Shown: piece by piece, positions 2,706 through 24,470 of the stretch
How positions within the stretch are numbered: position 1 is the first letter of the stretch
Layout: every line of letters starts with the position of its first letter
Source of the DNA: Anaerolineaceae bacterium
GTDB lineage: Bacteria; Chloroflexota; Anaerolineae; Aggregatilineales; Phototrophicaceae
Length of the DNA: 64,000 bases
Assembly (NCBI GenBank): GCA_002699585.1
Contig: PABP01000035.1
Span: forward strand, 126,052-190,051
Reading direction: 5' to 3'
Notes under the pieces: model-generated
Told to the model about the DNA's origin: nothing
Seen by the model: only the letters and a program-made list of their open reading frames with translations
Databases searched by the model: none
Made by a program: the position numbers and the translations under genes

Positions 2706-3824
2706 ATGATTACCTACGTGTTCGACGATATGTTTTACAGCCCTGCGCGTGTGCTGGTGAACCCGGTGAATACCGTTGGTACGATGGGGGCTTGGCTCGC
2801 TAAAGACTTCAAGCGCTTCTTCCCACAGATGTTCCTGGCCTATCAAGAGCTATGCCAGACAGACCGCTTCGACATCGGCAACTTGATGCTCTATCGCGGG
2901 TCGCACCGTTGGGTGCTGAACTTCCCAGTGAAGCGCCATTTCCGCGCCTCGATCAAACCGGAATATATCGAAGCAGGTCTCAAAAAGTTTGCAGCGATCT
3001 ATGCCACCTATGACATTACGCTGATTTCGTTCCCGGCTTTGGGGTATGATCAAACTGGCCTGGATTGGAACGCCGAGATTCGACCTATGATGGAAGCCTA
3101 TCTGCGTCCGCTGCCGATTATGGTCTATGTGCATATGCCTGTGGCCAACGGTGATGCCGACAAAACGCCCAACATGCGCGCTATTCGCAATTGGCTGAAC
3201 AGTCCCCACGGCGATGTCGATTTTGAAGCATTCTGGGCGCAGTTGACCAAACGCCTTGAGAAAACCGAGTCCTTACAGACGACAAGTAAAGGTAAGCCTT
3301 CCGTTGCTTTCCGAACCAAAGCAGAAGGCGAACCTGGCAGCCAGAGTCGCGTCAGCCTGCGCATATTCGTCGGTGATGAGCGTCCCATTTTCATCCCGGA
3401 GACATCCCTGCGTGATTTATGGGCGTATGTCAAACGGGCTGGTTATGCCTTGCCGCAGAACTTCCCGGCGGGTCTTGACCAATATGGCCAATATCTGATC
3501 CCGATTCTGGATTTGCTGGATACCGTGCGCTCGGTCAAGCTGGCCAGCCGCGTGACGGAAACATTGCCCGGTCTGCATTATGTTCGTCCATTGGCATCGC
3601 AAGATCGTGCCAAACAGGTGACAGCGACGCTCATCAAGCCGCCAACGGAGAGCAAGCCGCCAACGGAGAGCAAGCCGCCAACGGAGAGCAAGCCGCCAAC
3701 GGAGAGCAAGCCGCCAACGGAGAGCAAACCACCTGCGGAGAGCAAACCACCTGCGGAGAGCAAACCGCCGACAGATAATAAACCGCCAACCGACACGAAG
3801 CCGGACAACAAGCCGAGTCCATAA
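2706..3824 (+). CDS. DarG-like macro-domain protein (putative antitoxin / ADP-ribosyl hydrolase)
   Basis: The product has 372 residues. Residues 1-145 read as a DarG-type macro domain: V-N-T-V-G-T-M-G at 21-28 (adenosine/ribose-binding Asn22), A-K-D-F-K-R-F-F-P at 32-40, N-F-P-V-K-R-H-F-R at 72-80 and G-L-D-W at 118-121. DarG macro domains remove ADP-ribose from thymidine in DNA, and the Lys in the NFPxKRH motif (here Lys76) is important. The loop usually written GxGxGGLxW is G-Y-D-Q-T-G-L-D-W here, so hydrolase activity is not certain. Residues 150-310 are an unrecognised domain. The last 60 residues are hexapeptide repeats. The gene lies 12 bases before the TIR-DarT gene, which implies co-expression. 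A GAGGAT ribosome-binding site sits at 2689-2694. The order antitoxin-first is the reverse of most darTG operons. Confidence 0.8.
   Translation: MITYVFDDMFYSPARVLVNPVNTVGTMGAWLAKDFKRFFPQMFLAYQELCQTDRFDIGNLMLYRGSHRWVLNFPVKRHFRASIKPEYIEAGLKKFAAIYATYDITLISFPALGYDQTGLDWNAEIRPMMEAYLRPLPIMVYVHMPVANGDADKTPNMRAIRNWLNSPHGDVDFEAFWAQLTKRLEKTESLQTTSKGKPSVAFRTKAEGEPGSQSRVSLRIFVGDERPIFIPETSLRDLWAYVKRAGYALPQNFPAGLDQYGQYLIPILDLLDTVRSVKLASRVTETLPGLHYVRPLASQDRAKQVTATLIKPPTESKPPTESKPPTESKPPTESKPPTESKPPAESKPPAESKPPTDNKPPTDTKPDNKPSP
3639..3800 (+). repeat. 18-bp in-frame tandem repeat encoding a Pro/Glu/Lys hexapeptide
   Basis: There are nine consecutive 18-base units. Five encode P-P-T-E-S-K (3639-3728, almost identical), two encode P-P-A-E-S-K (3729-3764), and two diverged units follow (P-P-T-D-N-K and P-P-T-D-T-K). 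They form the C-terminal tail of the macro-domain protein. Unit length keeps the frame, so copy number could change without breaking the gene. Confidence 0.95.
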
Positions 3825-3836
3825 TCAGGAGCCAGT

Positions 3837-5246
3837 ATGAGCCGCAGCACCACCCTGAACATTTTCATCTCGTATGGCCGCCGTGATGGCCGCACGCTGG
3901 CGCTGCGTCTGCGTGATGATTTGCAGCGGTTGGGGCATAGTGTCTGGCTGGATACCAACGAAATCCCTGGAGGGGCCAATTGGGCGCAGCAAATCGAGGA
4001 AGCCATTGAGCATTGCGACGTCACCCTGGCGCTGATGACCCATGCCTCCTATGAATCCCAGTGGTGCCGCGCAGAGCAATTGCGTTCACTGCGCAAGGGC
4101 AAGCGCATCATTCCGTTGCAGCTCCAGCATGAGGCCGAAATTCCGTTGACCCTGGAGCACCTCAATTATCTTGATTTCACCAACATGGAACGCTACGATG
4201 CCATGTTCCGTGACCTCGTCAGTGACATGACCTCTGGCATCGCCTTTAATCCACGCGATACCTCGACGGTTGCGTCACCATCGCCTTATAAGCCACAAAC
4301 AGAAAGTGAAAGTCGGGCTGATGACGAAAAGCGTGATGCCGCCAGTTTCCGTCGTGTTTTGCGCGACTTGCGTGGGCAAAATTGGTTAGGGGCGCGTTCC
4401 TGGTGGCCCTATTTCGCCTTCACCTATATCGATGTGCCCACCCTGGTCGAGACGCTCAAGCAAGGCAAGCTCACTGCACCTGGCCCCGGTCAGGGACGCG
4501 GTCGCTGGGGACGCTATCTGCGCTTCTATTTTCGTCCACGCACGCCGGATGCCTACTTTGCTGAGGGTTTCCATACGACGAATAAGCGCAATGCACCGCA
4601 TGGCATGATGGCCTACTTGCTGTTCGATATGGAAGCTGTGCTGCTGCATACCGAGTCTCGTCTGAGCAATGGCAACCCCACCCAGACGAATAAGACCTAC
4701 AAAACAGCCAACTTCTTTAGCGAACTACCTTTTGAGCGAGTCTATCACGATAGCTGGTTCACATCTGATGAGCGTGACGAGATTGTACGCTTCCGGGAGA
4801 CACAAATTCTGCTGCCGGAGGAAATCGGCCTGGAAGCCCTGCAATTGATATGGCTGCGGTCCGAGGGCGAGTATGAAACGCTCCATCGCTTGCTGGATGC
4901 CAAAACTTGGCAGCACTGGCGCGACAAAATCACCCGCCGCACCGATTATCACCTTTTCAACAACAACCGCCTCTTCGTTGATCGCGCCATTTGCCAGCCC
5001 GGTAGCGTGTGGTTGCGCTTCAACCTGCCGCACCGGGAAGAAGATAAAGGCCCGTTCAACCTGAAAATCCGTTCGGAAACCAGCGCGGGGGCTGTCTATG
5101 AATGGCAGCAGGAAGATTTTACCGCCGTGCGTGACCTGCGCGTGTCGCTGCCGACCGAAAAAGAACCCTATGTCGTCCAGGCCAAGATCAACGGTCAGAT
5201 CGCTTATGTCGGTCGCTATCTGGGTAAGCCTATCGTCGTTGCCTAA
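3837..5246 (+). CDS. TIR domain - DarT-like (DUF4433) DNA ADP-ribosyltransferase fusion
   Basis: The product has 469 residues. Residues 1-134 are a TIR domain: F-I-S-Y-G-R-R-D at 10-17, a W-L-D-T box at 37-40, and S-Q-W-C-R-A-E at 74-80, where Glu80 sits at the NADase catalytic position. After an acidic linker, residues 180-350 match DarT. F-T-Y-I-D-V-P-T-L replaces the typical ThxdNLpsIl start. L-R-F-Y-F-R-P-R-T-P-D-A-Y near 225 is the NAD-binding YFxPRTPMLY signature. R-F-R-E-T-Q-I-L-L-P near 317-326 corresponds to the RxAExLV motif with the catalytic Glu (about 320). Residues 350-469 are an unassigned C-terminal domain. DarT modifies thymidine in single-stranded DNA; TIR domains cleave NAD or signal. 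The neighbouring DarG-like macro protein strongly supports the DarT reading. Whether both domains are active is inference. Confidence 0.82.
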   Translation: MSRSTTLNIFISYGRRDGRTLALRLRDDLQRLGHSVWLDTNEIPGGANWAQQIEEAIEHCDVTLALMTHASYESQWCRAEQLRSLRKGKRIIPLQLQHEAEIPLTLEHLNYLDFTNMERYDAMFRDLVSDMTSGIAFNPRDTSTVASPSPYKPQTESESRADDEKRDAASFRRVLRDLRGQNWLGARSWWPYFAFTYIDVPTLVETLKQGKLTAPGPGQGRGRWGRYLRFYFRPRTPDAYFAEGFHTTNKRNAPHGMMAYLLFDMEAVLLHTESRLSNGNPTQTNKTYKTANFFSELPFERVYHDSWFTSDERDEIVRFRETQILLPEEIGLEALQLIWLRSEGEYETLHRLLDAKTWQHWRDKITRRTDYHLFNNNRLFVDRAICQPGSVWLRFNLPHREEDKGPFNLKIRSETSAGAVYEWQQEDFTAVRDLRVSLPTEKEPYVVQAKINGQIAYVGRYLGKPIVVA

Positions 5247-11650: not shown

Positions 11651-12955
11651 ATGGTTGATGAACGTAAGCCCAAACGAGAAAAACCCAAGCGTAAACGCAA
11701 ACGTGACGAGAGCATCTTTCCCTATGTGGCGATTTTTGCCGCTGCCATTGTCCTGATTGTCGGTGTAGCGGGCGTTTTCCTGCTGCGGCAAGATCAGCAA
11801 CTGCCTTGCGCAGACACCGACTCAGGCTGCGAATTCGCCACGCCAACCCCGATTGCTAATCCGCTGTTCCCGACGCCAACTCCGCTTTTGCCACCGGAGC
11901 TTGTTGGTCGGCAGCCTTCCAATGACCAATCGCCCATGATTAGCAGCCTCGCTCTGTCCCCCGATGAACAATATCTACTTATCGGCCTGAACAATCCTTA
12001 CCGCGCTGAGGTACTGGGCGAAGTCGTATCCATGCGCTTGGACCAATCAGAAGAAGGCCAGCCGACTTTCACCGAGGACATGAGCGAGTGGGAGTTAACC
12101 CAGACCCAACTGCGCAAGGTCGATGATATTGACATCCAGCCTGATGGCGATTTCTTCACCCTGGCATCGACCGTCAATCAGGCCGTCGAAGTTTATGACG
12201 TGAGTTTGGACAATATTTCCGGCGCTAATAGCGAGCTGCCCACCTATGCATCCTATAGCGATGCGGCCTTCAGTCCCGATGGACGTTATCTGGCAGTGGC
12301 TGGCAACGATGGCATCAGCCTGCGTGATGCTGCGACTCAGGACGAATTGGCATCCATAGAGGCCAACCCTGGCGAGCCAATGGTCATTGATCTGGTGTTC
12401 ACCAGTGATTCATCGACGCTGGTTGTCGCTCACAGCGAGGTGATGAGTAACAATATGTCACCCTATCTGGAAATCTGGCAAGTAGATGATGATTCGCTCA
12501 GTGCGACGCAGTCCGTGTTGATAGACCGCGTCATCATCGATATGGTTGCGCACCCAACGCTGAATCAGGTGGCCATTGCCATGCCCGGTCAGATCGACAT
12601 TTACGATCTCGATAGCCAGCAACATGAGTCCTATCCTATCCAGCAAACCCCTGCGATAACAGCTCTGACATACCATCCGACGGGTGGGGTGTTGGCCTTC
12701 GGTGGCAGTCATGATGCTATCACTGGATCGTTGTATGGAATTCCTTTGGGTGACGATGGGTTCCCCGTCTTGTCTGATGGAGCAATCAACGTGAATACGA
12801 TGGGCTTCACCAGCGGCCCGGTATCGGAATTGCTCTACAACGGCTCCGGGGCGACGTTATTCGTCGGCACGACCAACGGCCTCTTATTGGCCTGGGATGC
12901 CCTCACCAGCCAAAATTACGACGATTACATCTTTCCGGGCGATCAACAACCTTGA
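11651..12955 (+). CDS. Anchored extracytoplasmic beta-propeller (WD40-like) protein, paralogue 1
   Basis: The product has 434 residues. It begins with a strongly basic cytoplasmic tail (Lys/Arg repeats, residues 5-20), one membrane helix at about 24-47, a Cys pair at about 55-62, and a Thr/Pro linker (P-T-P-L). The rest is a beta-propeller-like domain: L-A-L-S-P-D-E-Q-Y-L-L, A-A-F-S-P-D-G-R-Y-L-A-V-A-G-N-D and T-Y-H-P-T-G-G-V-L-A-F-G-G are blade phrases. No enzymatic motif is visible. AGGA lies upstream of the ATG. The next two genes share the same architecture and must be tandem duplicates. Confidence 0.88.
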   Translation: MVDERKPKREKPKRKRKRDESIFPYVAIFAAAIVLIVGVAGVFLLRQDQQLPCADTDSGCEFATPTPIANPLFPTPTPLLPPELVGRQPSNDQSPMISSLALSPDEQYLLIGLNNPYRAEVLGEVVSMRLDQSEEGQPTFTEDMSEWELTQTQLRKVDDIDIQPDGDFFTLASTVNQAVEVYDVSLDNISGANSELPTYASYSDAAFSPDGRYLAVAGNDGISLRDAATQDELASIEANPGEPMVIDLVFTSDSSTLVVAHSEVMSNNMSPYLEIWQVDDDSLSATQSVLIDRVIIDMVAHPTLNQVAIAMPGQIDIYDLDSQQHESYPIQQTPAITALTYHPTGGVLAFGGSHDAITGSLYGIPLGDDGFPVLSDGAINVNTMGFTSGPVSELLYNGSGATLFVGTTNGLLLAWDALTSQNYDDYIFPGDQQP

Positions 12956-13107
12956 TCTATTTGGGGGAGGTGCGTGAGGGTTGTGCTTCTCCCACTATTG
13001 CGCCTCTCCCACTCCTAGCGCTGCCTTACCGTATGGTAGCCGTCCATTAGACCGGGTCGGAACCCTGTAACATAGGAAATGTCTGATGCACTGGGAGGCT
13101 GTTTTTG

Positions 13108-14394
13108 ATGACAAACCCACCACCGAAACCATCACAGAAGCCGAAACGCAAGCGTAAACGTAAGAATGATGAGGGCGGTATCCCCCTGTGGATGATCGTC
13201 TCCGCTAGTCTAGTCGTGCTGATAATCGTCGGAGCAGGAGCTTTTCTGCTGATACGCTCTCGTGAGCCATCATTACCAGATTGCCCCGATCCCTCCGTAC
13301 CGTGTGTGCCAGCGACACCTACCATGATACCCAACGTCCTGTATCCGACAGTCACGCCTGCTGGGATGCTACCGGGCAGCCAGAACCAGATTGAGCTGTC
13401 CACGATGGCCCTGTCGCCCGATAGCAGTCAATTGGTCGCGGCGCTGGCTCCGACAGCCGCCGAGGATCCTAGCGGTGTGATACGGTCATTTCGCTTGATA
13501 AATGATCCATCGGGCCAGCAAGACCTCGCCCCTGGGGATATGCGCCTCGATCTGGCGCCGCTGCCGATGGGGCAGGTGGATACCATCGCCTTCGACCCAT
13601 TAGGCAGGCATGTGGCTTTGGCCTCAAAGGCCTATCATCGTACCATGCTGTATCCGGCGGATTTCTCGCAGATTGTTGATGGCAGCGACGTAGCCGTCTA
13701 TCGACAGTACACGCAGGTCGCCTTCAGTCCGGATGGTCGTTACTATGCCATCGCTAACGAAGATGACGTCCAGCTTTATGATGCCGAGACGCTTGAATTA
13801 CTGGACGAAGCCGATTTTATTGCCCAGCCTGAAGCCGTTGACATTACCTTTGATAGCACATCTGGGTTGCTGGCGGTCGCTCGCAGCCAACCAGGAGCCG
13901 CTTATTCGCCTTACGTTCGCGTTTGGGACGTCTCCTCTGGCTCGCTGGAGGAATACGGCCCCACGATAAAGATCACAGACACCTACATCATGGACATCGC
14001 TTTCAACCCGGTGCGCAACCAGATCGCTATGTTGAACCTGGGTGAACTCATGGTGGCTGACCTCGACACGGGTGAGACGCATACGTATGTGCTGATGGGG
14101 CACGCGTCGCGCGCGCTGGCCTACAGCCCACAAGGCGACATGCTGGCATGGGGTACGGAAAGAGGCCCAACGTCCGGCGATATATACCTGCTACCCTTAG
14201 AGGCGGGTATCCCCCTCCGCAACGCCGAGGATGATACGCCTGTTACCATCGTCAAGATGCCGACATCTCCTGGTGTGCATACATTAGCCTGGTCACCAGA
14301 GGGTACTCTTATCGCCGGGTTGGCCAATGGCCGCATCGAATTGTACGATGCTCATATCGGACAAGTCATTGCCTCTGATGCATTCTATCCATAG
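13108..14394 (+). CDS. Anchored extracytoplasmic beta-propeller protein, paralogue 2
   Basis: I chose the ATG at 13108 because GGGAGG lies 9 bases upstream; a TTG one codon earlier is less likely. The product has 428 residues. It has a basic tail, a membrane helix at about 27-50, a C-P-D-P...P-C-V-P Cys pair just outside the membrane, a Thr/Pro linker, then propeller blades (M-A-L-S-P-D-S-S-Q, V-A-F-S-P-D-G-R-Y-Y-A-I-A, L-A-Y-S-P-Q-G-D-M-L-A-W-G). It is similar end to end to its neighbours at 11651 and 14409. The conserved juxtamembrane Cys pair suggests a disulfide outside the cell. Confidence 0.88.
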   Translation: MTNPPPKPSQKPKRKRKRKNDEGGIPLWMIVSASLVVLIIVGAGAFLLIRSREPSLPDCPDPSVPCVPATPTMIPNVLYPTVTPAGMLPGSQNQIELSTMALSPDSSQLVAALAPTAAEDPSGVIRSFRLINDPSGQQDLAPGDMRLDLAPLPMGQVDTIAFDPLGRHVALASKAYHRTMLYPADFSQIVDGSDVAVYRQYTQVAFSPDGRYYAIANEDDVQLYDAETLELLDEADFIAQPEAVDITFDSTSGLLAVARSQPGAAYSPYVRVWDVSSGSLEEYGPTIKITDTYIMDIAFNPVRNQIAMLNLGELMVADLDTGETHTYVLMGHASRALAYSPQGDMLAWGTERGPTSGDIYLLPLEAGIPLRNAEDDTPVTIVKMPTSPGVHTLAWSPEGTLIAGLANGRIELYDAHIGQVIASDAFYP

Positions 14395-14408
14395 GCAGGA
14401 GAGCTTTC

Positions 14409-15674
14409 TTGACTGAACCGCAGCACAAGCTAAAACGGAAACGCAAAGAAAAACCCAAGCGCGAGATCAGCCCAAAGTTGATATTCCCACTATCGTTGGG
14501 GGTGGTTTTGTCATCGGCGATGATTATGGTTGTGTTGGTAGGTCTTGGAATCATAGTCGTGTGGGTTCGCCAGGGTGTTGTGCCGAATTGCCCATCGGAT
14601 GCCACCTGCGACTTTATCACACCGACGCCACTACCCGCGCTGTATCCGACTATGCCGTCCTTACCTCAGCCTACCTCTCGCGATCTGACGGTATCATCCT
14701 TGGCCATCTTCCCGGACCAGAATGCGCTGCTGGTGGGGTCTTATGTCAATATCGGGCAATCGAGCGCCCAGGTACGCCACTATCCCATAGCCAATTCCGA
14801 TATGCAGGTGTATGAACTGGTCGATACGGTGCCGCTGGTCCAACTAGGGCAGGTTGGTCTGACCAGCATCCAGGACATTGTGCAGCAGCCCGGTGGCGAC
14901 ATCTATGCGCTTGCCTCCCGTATGGATCAACAGGTCCAGCTTTATCAGGGGGATGTGGGGGCGCTTTTTGCCCGCTTTGAGGATGCAGACTACGCACCCA
15001 TTAGCTACTCAGGCTATGGCGACATCGCCTTCAGCCCGGATGGTCGATTTTTTGCCTTGGCGGGGGACAGTGGCCTGCAAATCCGTAGCACGGAAACACT
15101 CAATGTTGTCTCTGAGGTGCCGCGCATTATCGATGAACCCTTTGATGTCCAGGCGGTTGCCTATAGCGCCTCTGGTGAGGTTGCCGTCGCTTATCGTAGT
15201 TATCTGAATGGCGGTACGTTCCACCTCAAGGTATGGGAAACACACGATGGCCAGCTTGATGCGGTACACCATTACCAGCTGGCACAGATGGCTCTCGACA
15301 TGTTCTACCTGCCGACAACGGGCACCCTAGTCATCACCATGCCGACAGCGTTGGGCATATACCAGCCAACCGATACCTTGATCATGCCCACGATTCTGTC
15401 ACCCTTGCCGAGCCTTGCATCCGTTGCTTACCAATCTCATGGCAACCAATTGATCGTGGCCGGGAACTTCAATGGCTTGAGTGGAGCCGTAATGCGTGTG
15501 CCCCTGGATGCCGATGGTGCGCTCATGTGGGATGAAAATGGCATCATTTCCGAAGAAATCCAGCGTTTTGATACCACACTGACCGAAGTGATTCTCACGG
15601 AAGATGGCTCGACAGCCTATGTCGGCACAAAAAGTGGCATCGTCGAAATCGTTGCCATATCGGAACCAAACTGA
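14409..15674 (+). CDS. Anchored extracytoplasmic beta-propeller protein, paralogue 3
   Basis: The product has 421 residues from a TTG start with AGGAGA upstream, only 14 bases after the previous stop, so it is translated from the same message. The architecture repeats: Lys/Arg-rich tail, membrane helix at about 24-52, C-P-S-D-A-T-C-D Cys pair, Thr/Pro linker, blades such as L-A-I-F-P-D-Q-N-A, I-A-F-S-P-D-G-R-F-F-A-L-A-G and T-E-V-I-L-T-E-D-G-S. The family hallmark is a short juxtamembrane stretch with two Cys 5-9 residues apart. The function is unknown. Confidence 0.87.
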   Translation: MTEPQHKLKRKRKEKPKREISPKLIFPLSLGVVLSSAMIMVVLVGLGIIVVWVRQGVVPNCPSDATCDFITPTPLPALYPTMPSLPQPTSRDLTVSSLAIFPDQNALLVGSYVNIGQSSAQVRHYPIANSDMQVYELVDTVPLVQLGQVGLTSIQDIVQQPGGDIYALASRMDQQVQLYQGDVGALFARFEDADYAPISYSGYGDIAFSPDGRFFALAGDSGLQIRSTETLNVVSEVPRIIDEPFDVQAVAYSASGEVAVAYRSYLNGGTFHLKVWETHDGQLDAVHHYQLAQMALDMFYLPTTGTLVITMPTALGIYQPTDTLIMPTILSPLPSLASVAYQSHGNQLIVAGNFNGLSGAVMRVPLDADGALMWDENGIISEEIQRFDTTLTEVILTEDGSTAYVGTKSGIVEIVAISEPN

Positions 15675-16707: not shown

Positions 16708-17184
16708 ATGTCCAATTGGTGGGGCAGTCGTAAAGATGTATCACCGCGCTTAATTTGGGAAGTAGAGGCGATGAAATCGACCTTCGGCGGAACCTTCAAG
16801 CTGCATGTGCCGCCTTTTGGGGGCCTGCTGTATTGGGAAGGCTCGGTCGATGTGAATATGTCGATCCTGGATAACCCGGAGCACAAGCTCAAGATCGTCT
16901 ATCCCAAAGAATATCCCAATCGCCCAGCAGAGGCTTATTGCATCAAGCCCCGGATTTACAGCGAGAAGCACCAGTATGAAGATGGTCAGCTTTGCCTGTT
17001 CAATCCCAAAGATGGCGAAAACTACGGCTGGAACCCGTCGAAGTCCACAGCCGTGACGGTAGCAGGTTGGGCGATCCAATGGCTTTATGCCTACTATACC
17101 TGGCGTGCAACCGGCGATTGGCCCGGTATTGAAGAACGTATCCGCGAAGACCCGTCGGCACGCCGCCGCCGTCGCCGGAGGTAA
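16708..17184 (+). CDS. E2-like (UBC-fold) protein
   Basis: The product has 158 residues, and its phrases fit an E2 ubiquitin-conjugating fold. A beta meander is followed by Y-P-K-E-Y-P-N-R-P-A-E-A-Y (65-77, the YPxxPP-type segment), then H-Q-Y-E-D-G-Q-L-C-L-F-N-P (88-100), where Cys96 takes the active-site position and His88 that of the HPN His. W-N-P-S-K-S-T at 108-114 and a C-terminal helix follow (W-A-I-Q-W-L-Y-A-Y). Prokaryotic E2 proteins of Bil, CBASS Cap2 and related systems share this pattern. The protein ends in seven Arg residues, whose codons lead into the ribosome-binding site of the next gene. It is the first gene of a tight operon with JAB-like and E1-like genes. Confidence 0.85.
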   Translation: MSNWWGSRKDVSPRLIWEVEAMKSTFGGTFKLHVPPFGGLLYWEGSVDVNMSILDNPEHKLKIVYPKEYPNRPAEAYCIKPRIYSEKHQYEDGQLCLFNPKDGENYGWNPSKSTAVTVAGWAIQWLYAYYTWRATGDWPGIEERIREDPSARRRRRRR

Positions 17185-17190
17185 ATGCAT

Positions 17191-18555
17191 ATGCAAGATT
17201 TCGGCAGCCTGATTAATTCAGAACTGGACATCATCTCACGACGAATTAGGGGAATGGCAATGATTTCACGGGGCATTGTCCCGAATTTGGTCTTATCACA
17301 ACGGGCCGTGGACCGCATTGTGCATACGGCCCAGGGCTTTATTCAGGACGAAACGGGCGAATCGATGGTGGGGCTGGTTTTACCCGGCCAGGATGTCGAG
17401 GACATGCCGACCATCTATGTACTTGATACCATTTCTCCTGACGAAGCCACCACCGTCCGCATGACCCATACCTTCCAGCAGGGTGATGACCTGCAGGATG
17501 AGATCATCTGGTGGTTACAAGAGAACTGGCGTCTGAGTCGCGAACTTGGTCTCGATAGCAAAAGCCAGCCGTTTGATAGTCGCTTTGATTCGCCGCTGCG
17601 CTACCTGGGTGACTGGCACAAGCAGCCCGGTTACATGATCCAACCCAGTGGCGGCGATCTGATGACGGCCCTGGCTTGGCTCGACGATATGGAAAACCAG
17701 ATGGAGTATTTGCTGGTGCCGATTGTGACGCTTGGCCATCCAGCGACGACCCTGGCCAGCGAAGGTGACCGCGTCAATTACTTCACTTACCCGATGGAAG
17801 ACGGCACCGATCTGCGCATGGACTGGTGGTACATCCACCGCGATGTGCGCGTGTTCCAACCCATTACGCCCCTTATCCTGCCAGAAGAGACATTCCCAGC
17901 GGTTGCCGATTACCCCTGGCATCTGGTCCGGCCTGATCGCATTGAAGATGAAGTGGCCCTGTTGCAGCAAGAAGGCATGTTCGTTAATCCGCTGGTCTAC
18001 CAGGCCGATGATGACATCCCGATGGAACTGTGTTTCTTCGTAGCCCGCCCCGGCAGCGCGACCGTGTTACTGCTCATCACCGAGCACAACTATCCGCAGA
18101 CGCCACCGCGTGCCTTCACCGCACCCTTCCATCGCTTTGATCCGGCGGATGATTTCTATGATATTTTCGAGGAGTTCTGGGCGCAAAAAACCCCTGTTGA
18201 TGATCTACCTGCCTTCGATTGGCAGCCGGAAAGCACCTTGCTCGGTTTTATCCGCCTGATTGAAAGTCACCTCGGTATTGCGCCACCACCACCGCCGCAG
18301 CCCAAAGCCGTTAGCATCGCAGTGTCTGTCGATGGCGAAGAAGACGCACCGCCTGTTGATGGCGCCAGTGCTGATGCGGCCAGTGTCGATGGCGCGAGTC
18401 CTGATGCTGCCAGCACTGATGGAGCCAACCCTGATGCTGCCAGCACGGTTGCTGCCGAGCCGGAGCCTGCAACGCCAATCGAAGCGGCAAAAAAGCAAAA
18501 TACACCAACTGCCACCAACTCGACCGATGAAGAGACAGAGGAAGAAACGACATGA
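17191..18555 (+). CDS. JAB/MPN-domain protein with C-terminal E2/RWD-like domain
   Basis: I chose the ATG at 17191 because GGAGG at 17177-17181 is 9 bases away; the ATG at 17185 would be too close. The product has 454 residues. Residues 30-190 match a JAB/MPN isopeptidase: Glu57 in G-E-S-M-V-G-L-V and G-D-W-H-K-Q-P-G...P-S-G-G-D. The metal motif HxHx10D appears as His143-Lys-Gln145-x10-Asp156, so the second His is Gln. Residues 250-365 look like an inactive E2/RWD fold: I-T-E-H-N-Y-P-Q-T-P-P-R-A-F near 297, then W-Q-P-E-S-T-L-L near 344, with no Cys between. The tail is an Ala/Asp/Ser/Gly low-complexity stretch. The stop overlaps the E1 start (ATGA). Relatives remove ubiquitin-like modifiers; activity here is uncertain. 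Confidence 0.8.
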   Translation: MQDFGSLINSELDIISRRIRGMAMISRGIVPNLVLSQRAVDRIVHTAQGFIQDETGESMVGLVLPGQDVEDMPTIYVLDTISPDEATTVRMTHTFQQGDDLQDEIIWWLQENWRLSRELGLDSKSQPFDSRFDSPLRYLGDWHKQPGYMIQPSGGDLMTALAWLDDMENQMEYLLVPIVTLGHPATTLASEGDRVNYFTYPMEDGTDLRMDWWYIHRDVRVFQPITPLILPEETFPAVADYPWHLVRPDRIEDEVALLQQEGMFVNPLVYQADDDIPMELCFFVARPGSATVLLLITEHNYPQTPPRAFTAPFHRFDPADDFYDIFEEFWAQKTPVDDLPAFDWQPESTLLGFIRLIESHLGIAPPPPPQPKAVSIAVSVDGEEDAPPVDGASADAASVDGASPDAASTDGANPDAASTVAAEPEPATPIEAAKKQNTPTATNSTDEETEEETT

Positions 18556-19454
18556 CAATGGATTGGACCCGTGTCGAACAACTATTTGGCTCAGAGAATT
18601 TACGCTTTCTCGCTCAAAAGCGGGTTGGCGTGGTCGGGTGTGGATCAGGTGGCAGCTTCGTTGCGCTCAGCTTGGCGATGAGCGGTGTCGGTCACTTCAC
18701 ACTCATTGATTCCGACGTGCTCGAACCGGGCAACGTGGTACGCCATGCTTGTGATATGCGCTACATCGGCCAGAACAAGGCCGCCGCTGTGGCTGACCTC
18801 ATTAAGCAGCGCAACCCCAAAGCCGAGATTGATGTCCGCGAAGGCCGTATCGAAGCCCACATGGATGCGCTCGATGACCTCGATATTTTGGTGGTCGGCG
18901 TTGATGGCGAAAACGTCAAATACATCATCAATGAAGCCGTTCTCAAGCGTGGGGTGACTGCGGTCTATGCCGGGGTCTATGAACGCGGCGAAGGGGGCGA
19001 TGTGGTCATCATCCGGCCCTATAACGGCCCCTGTTATGCATGCTGGGCTGAAGAACTGCGCGAAGGGGCACGGACGCCTATGCCCGGTGAAACTGAACTC
19101 GACTACGGCATGATCGGTGAAAGTGGCACGCTAGAAGCCGAACCGGGCCTGTGGATACACGTGACAAAGGTCGCCAGTATCCAGACCGACCTCATCTTGA
19201 ACGAACTACTGCGCGGCACCGACTTGCACAACGATATGCCCGGCAATACCATCGTCATCGCCAATCGTGAGCTGGAAATTCTTGATGGCATCATCAATCA
19301 GCCGCATACCGCCGTTTGGGTCGATATCCCGCGTGACCCGGATTGCCTCGTCTGTGGCGATAAACTGCGCCTGAATGACGAAAGTCGCCAGTCCATGTCG
19401 CTCGATGACCTTGATACCAGCATCGTCTTTGAAGAGGACGAAAGCACACAATAG
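18552..19454 (+). CDS. E1-like ThiF/MoeB-family adenylyltransferase
   Basis: The product has 300 residues, and its ATG overlaps the preceding stop. The Rossmann nucleotide loop is V-V-G-C-G-S-G-G at 27-34. D-S-D-V-L-E-P-G-N-V-V-R-H at 53-65 contains the Asp and Arg used for ATP and adenylate chemistry, and I-G-Q-N-K-A at 72-77 supplies the conserved Lys. Zinc-type pairs C-Y-A-C (near 162) and C-L-V-C (near 265) are present. Such enzymes adenylate the C-terminal Gly of a ubiquitin-like protein. I cannot point to a distinct catalytic Cys outside the zinc pairs. With the E2-like and JAB-like genes it makes a three-gene conjugation-type operon. Confidence 0.9.
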   Translation: MTMDWTRVEQLFGSENLRFLAQKRVGVVGCGSGGSFVALSLAMSGVGHFTLIDSDVLEPGNVVRHACDMRYIGQNKAAAVADLIKQRNPKAEIDVREGRIEAHMDALDDLDILVVGVDGENVKYIINEAVLKRGVTAVYAGVYERGEGGDVVIIRPYNGPCYACWAEELREGARTPMPGETELDYGMIGESGTLEAEPGLWIHVTKVASIQTDLILNELLRGTDLHNDMPGNTIVIANRELEILDGIINQPHTAVWVDIPRDPDCLVCGDKLRLNDESRQSMSLDDLDTSIVFEEDESTQ

Positions 19455-19693
19455 ACGTGCAGTAGGTAGCCCAATGAGGTAACCCAATGAGGGGATAGCC
19501 GCTGTCATTTGGCAACTTCTATGACTTATTTACACTTTTATGCAACCCACAGGGTGTGTAGATCGTTAATGGTCATAGAATAGGCACATGCCTATATGCT
19601 AATCTAACAGCGAATCATGTAAGATAGCTGTACACTAACGAGTCGTAAGGTAAAGTCATCAGCACCATGCTGGTGGTCCATACAGGAAAGCGT

Positions 19694-20050
19694 ATGACTG
19701 ACGAAAAGAACAACATCCCGGTTGATAATTCTGATGAAAGCAACGCCGGTGTAACCCCGGAGACGCCAGAAACCCCGGAGAGCACAACCCCGGAAAGCAC
19801 ACCGCCAACGGCCAGTGCCAATCCGCCCGCGTCGTCAACACCGCCGCCCGCTGATGAAGACATGGGCGACCGTTTAGAGCGCCTGGGTGGCGAGCCTGCT
19901 CCGGTTATCACGCCGGAAGAATTTGCGCGCCTCCAAAAAGCCGGTCAGGTCCACATCGATTCGCGTGGGCGTGTTCGCACAGCGCGTCGTAGTGAAGCCG
20001 AAGCGGGCGTGTCTCTGCGCAAGCGTCGGGCTTGGTATGTCAAAAAATAA
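19694..20050 (+). CDS. Small hypothetical protein, disordered N-terminus and basic C-terminus
   Basis: I took the ATG at 19694, with AGGA 6 bases upstream, rather than the in-frame ATG at 19667. The product has 118 residues. The first 60 are Thr/Pro/Glu/Ser-rich and likely disordered. Residues 62-118 contain L-E-R-L-G-G, an I-T-P-E-E-F-A-R-L-Q-K-A-G-Q helix and a basic end (R-K-R-R-A-W-Y-V-K-K). There is no C-terminal Gly-Gly and no beta-grasp pattern, so it does not look like the missing ubiquitin-like modifier. Its last codons overlap the start of the methyltransferase gene, so the two are translationally coupled. The function is unknown. Confidence 0.65.
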   Translation: MTDEKNNIPVDNSDESNAGVTPETPETPESTTPESTPPTASANPPASSTPPPADEDMGDRLERLGGEPAPVITPEEFARLQKAGQVHIDSRGRVRTARRSEAEAGVSLRKRRAWYVKK

Positions 20051-21218
20051 AGAGATCCAGATCTCACAGCTCGACCTGCTTAATAAGATGCGGAAAGCAG
20101 GCCGATTAAATGACCCGCGTATAGAAGCGGCTTTTCGTAAAGTGCCGCGTCATATGTTTTTGCCGGGTCTCCCCATAGAAAAAGCATATGCTGACGAAGC
20201 CGTGCCGCTCAAGAAAGATCCGGGCGGCCTGGTGATCAGCTCTGCCAGCCAACCGACCATGATGTCTATCATGCTGGAGCAGTTGGACCTGAAACCGGGC
20301 GATAACGTGTTGGAAATCGGTACGGCTTCAGGATATAACGCCGCCCTCATGCGCCTGCTGGTGGGCGAAGAGGGGCGCGTCACCACTGTTGAACTCGACA
20401 AAGACCTCGCTGATCAGGCCACGCGCAATCTGGCGATGGCGACTGTCAGCGATGTACAGGTTGTGCATGCCGATGGCGTGCTGGGCTATGCGCCGCGTGC
20501 CGCCTACGATGCCATCATCTCGACGGCGGGCATCTGGGATGTCCCGGAGATGTGGAAACGCCAGCTTAAGCAAGAAGGCCGCATTGTCGCGCCCATCTGG
20601 TTGGATGGCGTGCAGGTCAGCGCCCGTTTTGATCTACAGCCCGATGGCATTTTGCTAAGCACGGACAATCGCCCCTGTGCCTTTGTCTATCTGCGTGGCG
20701 AAGCCGCTGGCCCAGAGATGCGCCGCCGTATTGGCAGCACCTCGCTCTACCTGATTTCCGAGAGTGCCCGTGATGTTGATACGGTTGCGCTGCATACCTT
20801 GCTCAGTGACGATCACGAGTATTGCAGCCTGGAAACTTCCATTGACGAATATTCGGTCTGGTACGGCTTGCAACTCTATTTGATGCTCTACCAGCCGGAC
20901 GATGTCACCTTTGCCCTGTATGCCATCATCGAAGGCCAGCAGGCCTATGGCATGGAAGGCCGTGGCGTCGCTTTGTTCGACCACGCCAGCGCCATGTTCT
21001 TACCCTATGATGGCAACGGTCAGGGACATTGCTTCGCCGGCGCGGATGCCTTGTTCCGTATGCAAGCCGCCTACGATGAGTGGAAAGCGATGGGCATGCC
21101 GCGTACGGAAAGCCTGCGCGTGCGCCTCATCCCCAAAAATCAGAAGCCGCCTACCGAAGGCCGCGTCTATACCCGCCGCGATCATCATGTTCAGGTCTGG
21201 CTAGAGACTAACTCGTGA
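20037..21218 (+). CDS. Protein-L-isoaspartate O-methyltransferase family protein (PIMT-like)
   Basis: I use the ATG at 20037, inside the previous gene, because upstream residues in this frame are an out-of-frame copy of that gene. The product has 393 residues. Residues 1-200 match PIMT: V-P-R-H-M-F-L-P (37-44), a Ser/Gln segment S-S-A-S-Q-P-T-M-M (68-76), and SAM motif I V-L-E-I-G-T-A-S-G-Y at 91-100. The enzyme repairs isoaspartyl damage using S-adenosylmethionine. The C-terminal 190 residues are an extension seen in some actinobacterial and Chloroflexi homologues, and its role is not clear to me. Its stop overlaps the GTG of the Nudix gene. Confidence 0.88.
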   Translation: MSKNKEIQISQLDLLNKMRKAGRLNDPRIEAAFRKVPRHMFLPGLPIEKAYADEAVPLKKDPGGLVISSASQPTMMSIMLEQLDLKPGDNVLEIGTASGYNAALMRLLVGEEGRVTTVELDKDLADQATRNLAMATVSDVQVVHADGVLGYAPRAAYDAIISTAGIWDVPEMWKRQLKQEGRIVAPIWLDGVQVSARFDLQPDGILLSTDNRPCAFVYLRGEAAGPEMRRRIGSTSLYLISESARDVDTVALHTLLSDDHEYCSLETSIDEYSVWYGLQLYLMLYQPDDVTFALYAIIEGQQAYGMEGRGVALFDHASAMFLPYDGNGQGHCFAGADALFRMQAAYDEWKAMGMPRTESLRVRLIPKNQKPPTEGRVYTRRDHHVQVWLETNS

Positions 21219-21868
21219 TTACCCTGCAAGACCTCCGCGCTGCTGTTGGTTTGACAGGCGTGTCGTTCACGGACGACATGCGCCCGCCGCGTGCGGGCTT
21301 CCCAACACCGCAAAAGCCCCCCAGGGAAGCCGCGGTGCTGGTGCTGGCCTATCCCGCCAGCGATGACCTCCATTTTGTGCTGACGCGCCGTTCCGACAGC
21401 CTGCGTGGCCATAGCGGCCAGGTGAGCTTCCCCGGTGGCCGCCGCGACCCGGAAGATCCCAGCTACACGGCGACTGCCTTGCGCGAAGCCTGTGAGGAAA
21501 TCGGCATCTGCAACGATACCCCGCTGGACATTCTCGGCCAGCTTAATAAGACCTTCATCCCGCCCTCCAACTTCAACGTGACACCCATCGTCGCCTATAC
21601 CGCTGTTAACTTGGCCTTTGCGCCCAATCCCGACGAAGTAGCCGAAATTTTCACGGTGCCCGTCGCCCAACTGCTGCATACTCAACTCAAGCACACCGAA
21701 GATTGGGACTTCAACGGCATGACCTTGCGCATTCCGTACTATGCCTTCAACGGCCACAAAGTATGGGGCGCGACCGCTATCATGCTCAACGAACTGGAAC
21801 AACGTCTGCGCGCTGTCTTACCAGCCAGCAAGCTGGACGCCCTCCACGACCAGCCATCGACCTATTAA
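21215..21868 (+). CDS. Nudix hydrolase, CoA-pyrophosphatase (NudL-like) type
   Basis: The product has 217 residues from GTG overlapping the preceding TGA. The Nudix box runs from G-G-R-R-D-P-E-D through A-L-R-E-A-C-E-E-I-G-I, with the metal-binding REx2EE core. It is preceded by the phrase L-T-R-R-S-D-S-L-R-G-H-S-G-Q-V-S-F-P-G-G, which is specific to the CoA diphosphatase group. This implies hydrolysis of CoA or acyl-CoA to phosphopantetheine and 3',5'-ADP. Third gene of a coupled run with the small hypothetical and PIMT genes. Confidence 0.9.
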   Translation: MITLQDLRAAVGLTGVSFTDDMRPPRAGFPTPQKPPREAAVLVLAYPASDDLHFVLTRRSDSLRGHSGQVSFPGGRRDPEDPSYTATALREACEEIGICNDTPLDILGQLNKTFIPPSNFNVTPIVAYTAVNLAFAPNPDEVAEIFTVPVAQLLHTQLKHTEDWDFNGMTLRIPYYAFNGHKVWGATAIMLNELEQRLRAVLPASKLDALHDQPSTY

Positions 21869-23906: not shown

Positions 23907-24470
23907 TCAGATTTTTTTGGCGCCCAACAGATGATGCAATCGCCGTAGTCCGCTTTGCCATTGGTCGTAAAAGTCCAACGGCGACATCCCTAATAACAGG
24001 TGATCGACGTTGCACAATTCGAACATGATCGGCACGATGACCTTGCCAGCATTCCAGAAATATTCATAGGTTGCGATGACGTTGGGATCGCGCATGCTGC
24101 TCTCAGAGATGATGAGCACCAGCACATTGGTCTGGTCCATCGTTGCCCGTACAGCCGCCTGCATCAGTTCGCTCTTGGAGCGATCATAGACGCCCATGAT
24201 AGACTGCACGCCGTTCTCTAGCAGGTCGTTATCCAGGTCACTGGCGAATAGCTCATCATAGGCGCTGTAGGTGATGACCACACCATCCGCTGCGGCCAGC
24301 CGGACCACTTTGTCACGTAGTGTAGATTGTAACGACTTAATCAGGTTAGGGTCTTCCGGGTTCTTGCGAAGTTGGCGGCGCAAAGCGATTCGTCGCGTGT
24401 TAAGCTCGAAAATCGGAGAATTCTGAAAGACTTCCTGCATCTGCTTAATGGTGAGACGTGCATTCACCAT
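23907..24470 (-). CDS. Small TIR-like (TIR_2-type) domain protein
   Basis: The product has 187 residues. The first 55 are helical and basic (T-R-R-I-A-L-R-R-Q-L-R-K). Residues 58-175 fit a TIR-like fold: D-G-V-V-I-T-Y-S-A-Y-D (strand A and loop), a long helix, L-V-L-I-I-S-E-S-S-M-R-D-P (strand D), then Y-E-Y-F-W-N-A-G-K-V-I-V-P-I-M, where the Glu lies where the NADase Glu is found. No effector domain is attached. Whether it cleaves NAD or only binds partners is unknown. An A/T palindrome at 24500-24511 (ACTATATATAGT) sits at promoter distance. It is spaced 8 bases from the glycosylase gene, so they are probably co-transcribed. Confidence 0.72.
   Translation of the reverse strand: MVNARLTIKQMQEVFQNSPIFELNTRRIALRRQLRKNPEDPNLIKSLQSTLRDKVVRLAAADGVVITYSAYDELFASDLDNDLLENGVQSIMGVYDRSKSELMQAAVRATMDQTNVLVLIISESSMRDPNVIATYEYFWNAGKVIVPIMFELCNVDHLLLGMSPLDFYDQWQSGLRRLHHLLGAKKI

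Follow-up and report, generated by a model that had tools for sequence, protein, structure and literature searches.

What do the enzymes of a ubiquitin-type pathway act on in a bacterium when no ubiquitin-like protein (Ubl) is encoded beside them? The question is raised by an operon in a 64,000-nucleotide stretch of contig PABP01000035.1 from an Anaerolineaceae bacterium (the window, by which we mean the whole stretch; coordinates without another label are positions in it). An original prediction, made from the letters alone, had recognized three coupled genes for an E2-like protein with Cys96, a JAB/MPN protein and a ThiF-type E1. These are real open reading frames on the plus strand, of 158 residues (16708-17184), 456 residues (17185-18555) and 300 residues (18552-19454), and their coordinates and coupling were borne out, as the E2 and JAB genes abut and the JAB and E1 genes overlap by 4 nt. 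The list of three was correct but overlooked a fourth conserved gene after that for E1 (19694-20050), which encodes a small protein that we call SP. Our tentative answer is that the operon is a housekeeping E1-E2 module that works without a Ubl and is fixed in five families, and that SP is its dedicated partner and probably its client. This reading is carried by the genes themselves, their conserved residues and recurrent order, an MPN fold seen in a model, near-universal presence, the joint absence of JAB and SP from three families, and the conservation of the SP domain. The components are as follows.

16708..17184, plus strand: E2/UBC-like protein, 158 residues.
17185..18555, plus strand: JAB/MPN protein, 456 residues, with a putative C-terminal E2-like domain (no active-site Cys) and a low-confidence acidic tail.
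17278..17913, plus strand: predicted JAB/MPN domain (residues 32-243 of the JAB protein) with a variant JAMM motif, placed by fold match and motif alignment.
17917..18300, plus strand: putative UEV/RWD-like domain (residues 245-372 of the JAB protein).
18552..19454, plus strand: E1/ThiF-type adenylating enzyme, 300 residues, with N61, R64, K76 and D118 kept and two zinc CxxC pairs.
19694..20050, plus strand: SP, 118 residues, with a variable Pro-rich N-terminus and a conserved 56-residue domain; it is recognized by conservation and recurrence beside E1 and matches no Pfam, NCBIfam or PADLOC family.

The E2 was found in 94 of 98 genomes of the family, including 63/63 of high quality and 24/24 genera, with a second, weak match in one genome; the corresponding counts for SP are 93/98, 59/63 and 23/24. 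Among 396 genomes of the class, strong E2 matches occurred in 36 (28 of the same family and 8 of the same order) and weak ones in seven others, and SP was present in 34, all within the 36 strong-E2 genomes, and in 0 of the other 360. JAB was detected in 96 of 111 genomes of the order, that is, in 96/99 of families f1 and f91 to f94 and in 0/12 of f95, f137 and f138, from which SP is likewise absent (0/12). Three genomes of f1, f91 and f93 had no JAB match, and two of them have no SP either. A 301-genome sample of the phylum gave JAB matches in 5, two in the same family as the window and three weak. In five families of one Anaerolineae order (Chloroflexota) nearly every genome has the module, almost always as a single copy, a pattern typical of core genes acquired by part of that order and not of a defence island. 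A search of 84,980 species genomes for SP relatives gave 124, and the contigs of 78 of the best 80 carry titles of Chloroflexota lineages. The other two SP contigs, titled Bacteroidetes and Pleurocapsa (L105 and L176), group within the Chloroflexota E1 tree and are probably mislabelled or contaminated assemblies.

The original prediction had placed the operon beside the Bil and CBASS defence systems, a frame that does not fit this distribution. PADLOC defence models do match the E1, E2 and JAB proteins; yet almost all genomes of five families have the genes and those of three others lack them, the operon has no Bil Ubl and no Bil-type E1 Cys domain, and the E2 gave no match in a plasmid search and one weak match in phages. 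No CBASS CD-NTase was found among the operon genes or their immediate neighbours by family matches, nor was such a conserved neighbour noticed. On account of the distribution we rejected defence as the main reading, and we consider a Bil- or CBASS-like antiphage system very improbable. The experimentally studied bacterial E1-E2-JAB systems that we know of, or that are described in the available passages of the literature, are patchy defence systems, whereas the window module behaves as a core function. Because the module is kept in this way across five families, it should be possible to find its substrate and phenotype in cells under ordinary growth.

The position of SP speaks for a tie to the enzymes. 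Eighty named loci were found through SP, with flanks of up to 6 kb. E2, JAB, E1 and SP occur together in 33 of them, JAB, E1 and SP in 5, E1 and SP in 1, and SP alone in 41. The four genes form a single run in 32/33 four-gene loci, the exception being L169 (1.2 kb ahead of SP). Measured from the E1 stop codon to the earliest in-frame start of SP, the gap does not exceed 36 nt, or the genes overlap, in 32 of the 39 loci that have both, although some of these overlaps are overstated owing to over-long starts. In a first set of 20 family stretches, E2, JAB and E1 lie together in 19 (L045 has E2 alone, and the contig of L048 ends in E1) and SP was found in 13; in 20 more stretches, from f91, f93 and f94 and including the SP place of genome G714, the four genes form one run in 19. 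With a further example in f92 (L079), the order E2-JAB-E1-SP recurs across all five families. Genes that have moved away are still kept, as is E2 in G408 and SP in G470 and G714. The gene 5′ of E2 varies among loci, and of the small-gene clusters seen in three or more of the 80 loci, SP alone adjoins E1, E2 or JAB. The claim that no Ubl is encoded beside the operon therefore stands, in that no small gene other than SP recurs near the three enzymes in the 20 family stretches and the 80 loci, as judged by recurrence of sequence and not of fold. Promoter-like and terminator-like matches in the E1-SP region are no commoner than in shuffled sequences, and the E1-SP gap of the window holds no terminator-like match.

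SP is a real gene, because differences among 79 sequences concentrate at the third codon position (0.11, 0.07 and 0.56 for positions 1, 2 and 3). Its conserved domain, at 19871-20038, reads RLERLGGEPAP..TPEEFARLQ.AGQVHID.RGRVR...GVSLRKRRAWY. No family in Pfam, NCBIfam or PADLOC matches it, and sequence searches gave a best E of 0.75 in the PDB and 0.008 in PHROGs. The AlphaFold model consists of helix, helix, one hairpin and helix, with a mean predicted local distance difference test score (pLDDT) of only 66.6, rising to 91 in the best blocks. Foldseek returned nothing for this model within an E threshold of 0.001; the top rows, at about E 2 and mostly DtxR-type regulators, were taken as noise. 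When the best 56-column stretches of neighbouring proteins were compared over 27 shared loci (15 for NUDIX and 12 for PfkB), mean pairwise identity was 89% for SP, 87% for E2, 78% for PfkB, 76% for E1, 72% for JAB, 71% for the NUDIX protein and 66% for the methyltransferase, the last two being encoded downstream of SP. Because of this comparison we dropped an earlier idea that SP evolves more slowly than all the rest of the neighbourhood, which came from setting the 56-residue SP domain against whole other proteins and so favoured SP unduly. We also considered the SP motif as a part of larger proteins; the three marginal matches (L074, L075 and L076) were treated as chance or local similarity. 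In L074 the SP-like motif lies inside another kind of reading frame. L075 (2636-3394, reverse complement) and L076 (3200-3919, plus strand) encode proteins that by eye are scaffold-like and whose N-terminus resembles the C-terminal motif of SP.

Why SP might be the client is best seen by comparison with CBASS. In the available part of its description, Cap2/Cap3 is a Ubl-less set of E1, E2 and JAB, as is the window operon, and its client is an operon protein without a ubiquitin fold, a CD-NTase whose C-terminal Gly/Ala is highly conserved (PMC10097602). By analogy with the conjugation of such a protein by the CBASS E1-E2, SP is the natural candidate for a client here. CBASS differs from the window operon in that Cap2 unites the E1 and E2 domains in one protein, in its CD-NTase client with a conserved Gly/Ala end, and in its defence distribution. 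In the proposed pathway SP would most probably be what undergoes activation, conjugation or processing. With regard to the three options of the original prediction (a modifier encoded elsewhere, one of the listed proteins as substrate, or a host protein such as a sulfur carrier), the second came close, but the likely partner is the unlisted fourth gene; a sulfur carrier acting in trans is possible.

Several observations weigh against SP as the dedicated partner of these enzymes. No E1, E2 or JAB was seen within the flanks of 41/80 SP loci; in the window itself, 239 nt separate E1 from SP and contain a promoter-like match at 19509-19536; and the linkage of SP to the methyltransferase and NUDIX genes persists where no E1 is nearby, so that its partner could be these enzymes. 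Genome G845 has SP and no JAB match. SP occurs only in the clade that has the enzymes, and their co-occurrence may for that reason reflect one shared origin rather than function. Over the whole protein, identity is 69% for SP versus 76% for E2, and because the SP domain only equals the best E2 stretch, conservation alone cannot single SP out. The C-terminus of SP is not conserved: 0-22 residues lie beyond the final conserved Tyr, and only 32/89 sequences end in Ala or Gly; these varying ends led us to discard the C-terminus as a conserved conjugation point. The client trait of CBASS, a conserved C-terminal Gly/Ala, is found in none of SP, E2, JAB and E1. Finally, the structural model of SP is poor overall.

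If SP is the client, the enzymes should be capable of activating it, and the E1 is the first to be considered. It matches Pfam ThiF at 3e-31, and N61, R64, K76 and D118, which we take to be the adenylation residues (we make the same assumption for the role of the nucleotide-binding motif), are invariant in 19/19 aligned sequences. By these residues and the ThiF match the protein is an E1-like adenylating enzyme, and it would adenylate a protein carboxylate. Its best-scoring solved relatives are MccB, ThiF, MoeB and UBA5. The catalytic cysteine of ThiF is Cys184. Across all 69 E1 rows, three outgroup rows among them, only the four CxxC cysteines are always present; of the other Cys columns, one has Cys in 49 rows (Val in the window) and another in 14. 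Because the CxxC pairs contain the only invariant cysteines, an E1 thioester is not expected to form, and direct passage of the acyl group from the adenylate to E2 is therefore plausible. On our favoured reading, the E1, lacking a catalytic Cys of its own, would hand the acyl group directly to Cys96 of E2.

That the first gene encodes a UBC-type protein was also put to the test at the sequence level and was upheld. The protein matches PADLOC E2 models at 2e-15, and its family profile detects E2s in the PDB, human UBE2L3 among them (4e-5 to 2e-3); the match to Pfam UQ_con, at 0.027, falls under the family cut-off, and an NCBIfam scan gave none. It has an active-site Cys96 and a His88, both invariant in 21/21 aligned orthologues, and a C-terminal tail rich in Arg. 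By profile it looks like a UBC-type protein with a catalytic Cys. In the members read, the C-terminal residue of E2 is mostly Arg, and the ends of JAB and E1 are variable.

The JAB protein has two notable features. A Pfam scan assigned it to no family and its own profile found nothing in the PDB sequences under E 0.1, so that of the PDB searches only that by fold showed the relation to MPN domains; PADLOC JAB models match it at 9e-6. The AlphaFold model, built from 36 sequences (pLDDT 81), resembles the MPN domains in the BRISC complex and in relatives of Rpn11 (Z 14-15), mostly over residues 32-243; with the Rpn11 homologue 6fju_A the values are Z 14.8 and a root-mean-square deviation of 3.6 Å over 167 aligned residues. 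The JAB protein is thus predicted to carry an MPN fold. What the window protein does not have is the canonical HxH form of the JAMM motif. Its residues are E59, H145-K-Q147-P148, S155 and D158, and within the stretch GDWHKQP a Gln replaces the second zinc-ligand His, so that the assignment as a JAB/MPN domain stands for the fold and fails for the canonical motif. HxQ is found in 63 of 66 in-clade JAB rows, some genomes being included twice, and HxH in 2, with one row unreadable. In the 20 further stretches the motif is HxH in 10/10 of f94 and HxQ in 9/9 of f91 and f93, one stretch having no JAB, and the three outgroup JAB proteins (L084, L214 and L215) are HxH. From these alignments, the HxQ form of the window JAB looks derived. 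In the E1 tree, the HxH row L058 sits on a long branch at the unresolved base, and the labels give 2 H/Q changes, of which the starred branches force 1. Because this count omitted L077, which is HxH and is placed with weak support among HxQ rows, it does not fix the number of changes.

In proteins with the HxQ motif, isopeptidase activity is expected to be missing or altered. The PDB list contains a QSQ mutant of BRCC36, which we take to be inactive. We propose that isopeptidase activity of JAB probably disappeared or changed where the motif went from HxH to HxQ and that the protein would serve mainly as scaffold and reader, with its UEV domain pairing with E2. The evidence for that domain lies in residues 245-372, which in the AlphaFold model follow the order alpha, four beta, two alpha. 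Aligned by hhalign with the operon's own E2, this segment gave E 4e-4 to 6e-4 at a probability of only 29-34%, where four control pairs gave E 0.27-0.78; the PDB rows of the fold search with the JAB model spanned residues 25-239 only. The sole conserved Cys of the segment, C283, lies in the strand ahead of a YPxxPP stretch and not at the active-site place. On this evidence, residues 245-372 resemble an additional E2-like domain, of the UEV/RWD type, that has no active-site Cys. One could envision from such features a regulatory complex without conjugation, in which a pseudo-JAB with UEV, the E2 and the E1 fold are kept for binding; the HxQ motif of most members read and the absence of an invariant E1 Cys beyond the CxxC pairs would agree with this. 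However, Cys96 of E2 and the adenylation residues of E1 are invariant, and a pure scaffold would not need them, which makes the complex without conjugation quite improbable in our judgment.

A correlation between the JAB motif and SP was also pursued. In f94, SP has SG or AG together with an HxH JAB in 10/10 stretches and in G714. The count of GG in SP, 88/89, comes from a set that held almost no f94 sequence. We rejected the idea that a change from GG to SG/AG tracks the HxH motif, since L058 is HxH with GG and L057 is HxQ with AG, two single cases against one clade.

The search for a modifier outside the operon covered the ThiS and YukD families. The window genome encodes three ThiS-family proteins. 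One is CysO-like, ends in GGR and lies near a JAB (HSHP) and a ThiF-rhodanese E1 (L203, 1892-5407, minus strand); another is fused to a MoaE-like stretch and the third adjoins an oxidoreductase-like gene, both by eye. In G451 a ThiS-like gene lies about 10 kb from the operon. Such proteins, present in 16/16 genomes searched, that of the window included, give substance to the possibility that a beta-grasp modifier encoded elsewhere, for example a CysO/ThiS-like sulfur carrier ending in GGR, is conjugated by the operon. Nevertheless, the same 16 include three genomes with no JAB and no SP (G728, G811 and G812); the CysO-like protein has an E1 and a JAB of its own nearby, and another of the three window-genome proteins is the MoaE-like fusion. 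YukD matches occurred in 6/16 genomes searched and not in that of the window, and no Ubl of the two families is known to be unique to module-bearing genomes. A modifier in trans is possible and nothing points to one; on balance we regard such a carrier as rather unlikely, though worth keeping in mind. A proteasome link was considered and rejected: PF00227 was found in 0/21 genomes, compared with 10/14 control genomes.

One alternative gives SP itself the part of the modifier. SP would then belong to a new class of covalent modifier without a ubiquitin fold, activated by the Cys-less E1 and carried on Cys96 of E2 in a housekeeping pathway; in its boldest form, SP may be cut within RLGG/EPAP, freeing a disordered, Pup-like tag that ends in Gly. 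We think it improbable that SP is such a modifier, and continue to prefer SP as the client.

Downstream of SP lie the two genes whose linkage to it was mentioned above.

20037..21218, plus strand: PCMT-type protein methyltransferase, nearest to the FxLD/peptide-maturase subfamily (PF01135 2e-46 on a longer open reading frame; TIGR04364 1e-79, below cut-off).
21215..21868, plus strand: NUDIX hydrolase, CoA pyrophosphatase-like (NF007980 4e-37, just below cut-off).

The methyltransferase gene overlaps SP by 14 nt, and the NUDIX gene, probably a co-transcribed neighbour, overlaps the methyltransferase gene by 4 nt. The gene directly 3′ of SP encodes the methyltransferase in 51/80 loci and the NUDIX protein in 27/80. 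This arrangement brings up a further hypothesis, that SP is the substrate of a peptide-maturation-like route in which the modifying enzymes are the MccB-like E1 and the FxLD-type methyltransferase, with E2 and JAB as helpers. MccB, the kind of E1 that scores best here among solved structures, acts on a peptide C-terminus; the best model for the methyltransferase is FxLD, and an ATP-grasp peptide-maturase model is among its top matches, both below cut-off. On the other hand, the methyltransferase is not next after SP in 29/80 loci, and the conserved SP Asp is followed by Pro in 7/7 f93 and 2/2 f91 stretches, so that aspartimide formation at this Asp would be prevented. To our knowledge, moreover, maturation precursors are usually less conserved than SP, and this counts against the route. 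As with the complex without conjugation, we give the maturation route little credence.

If the operon is a Ubl-less housekeeping module, its kin among described systems are of interest. The nearest kin seem to be three clusters from other Chloroflexota (L084, L214 and L215), which like the window have an E2, a JAB protein and an E1 that shares only the CxxC cysteines, with no Ubl by eye, and unlike it have the canonical HxH JAMM and extra membrane, SPFH and RWD-like proteins. A search for SP in the three gave no match. The RWD match in these clusters, at 0.003, is below cut-off, and further RWD/UEV-like parts were seen by eye. L214 (3788-11998, minus strand) encodes the E2, JAB protein and E1 with membrane and RWD-like proteins and an SPFH protein (PF01145 3e-8); L215 (5726-13002, plus strand) encodes the three enzymes with membrane and RWD-like proteins and, by eye, a von Willebrand-like protein upstream; no Ubl was seen in either. 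L084 is also one of the seven weak E2 matches, of which six were inspected; the other five of these (L082, L085, L086, L087 and L088) adjoin a CD-NTase (SMODS or DncV-like, by Pfam). These five stretches, of 15-16 kb, hold a lone E2 beside the CD-NTase and no E1 or JAB that matches the present profiles.

The Bil system (BilABCD) has separate E1, E2 and JAB genes, as the window does; it differs in its BilA Ubl and, according to the available part of its description, in a BilD with inactive and active adenylation domains and a Cys domain (PMC11354881), all of which the operon lacks. Iyer et al. 2006 described operon types 6a-6e, and the part of that paper at hand presents them as combining an E1-like, an E2-like and a JAB protein in one operon, 6e with an inactive E2/RWD-like protein; they are sporadic and patchy, 6a-6c having E2 and E1 in one protein and 6d and 6e a Ubl (PMC1779556). 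SP and a C-terminal UEV-like domain on JAB, the features of the present operon, do not appear in those descriptions. A CysO/JAB/MoeZ sulfur-carrier cluster has an E1 and a JAB, like the operon, but no E2; a separate cluster of the CysO type is present in the window genome. Titles and abstracts in the Creative Commons-licensed literature of PubMed Central yielded no report of such a system in Anaerolineae or Aggregatilineales. The operon is of a known kind, the bacterial E1-E2-JAB set, and differs in being core rather than defensive, in having no Ubl that was found, in its E1 without an invariant catalytic Cys, in its JAB with a UEV-like domain and a variant JAMM, and in its dedicated small partner.

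These differences make the operon a test case for how E1, E2 and JAB can work when both a ubiquitin fold and an E1 thioester are lacking. Among related families, the natural split between HxH and HxQ JAB proteins is a built-in comparison for isopeptidase function, and SP, whose domain equals the best E2 stretch in conservation, gives biochemistry a concrete target.

Some other genes of the window may be recorded. Upstream of the operon, 11651-15674 on the plus strand encodes a tandem of three related WD40/beta-propeller proteins that by eye are anchored in the membrane; of the 20 family stretches, only L039, of the same genus, has a relative beside the operon. A DarG-like macrodomain protein (2706-3824, plus strand; PADLOC 7e-40) is followed by a protein with an N-terminal TIR domain and a C-terminal DarT-like stretch (3837-5246, plus strand; 1e-7), and the pair at 2706-5246 is possibly a DarTG relative with a TIR-fused toxin. 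A small TIR-domain protein (PF13676 8e-11) is encoded at 23907-24470 on the minus strand.

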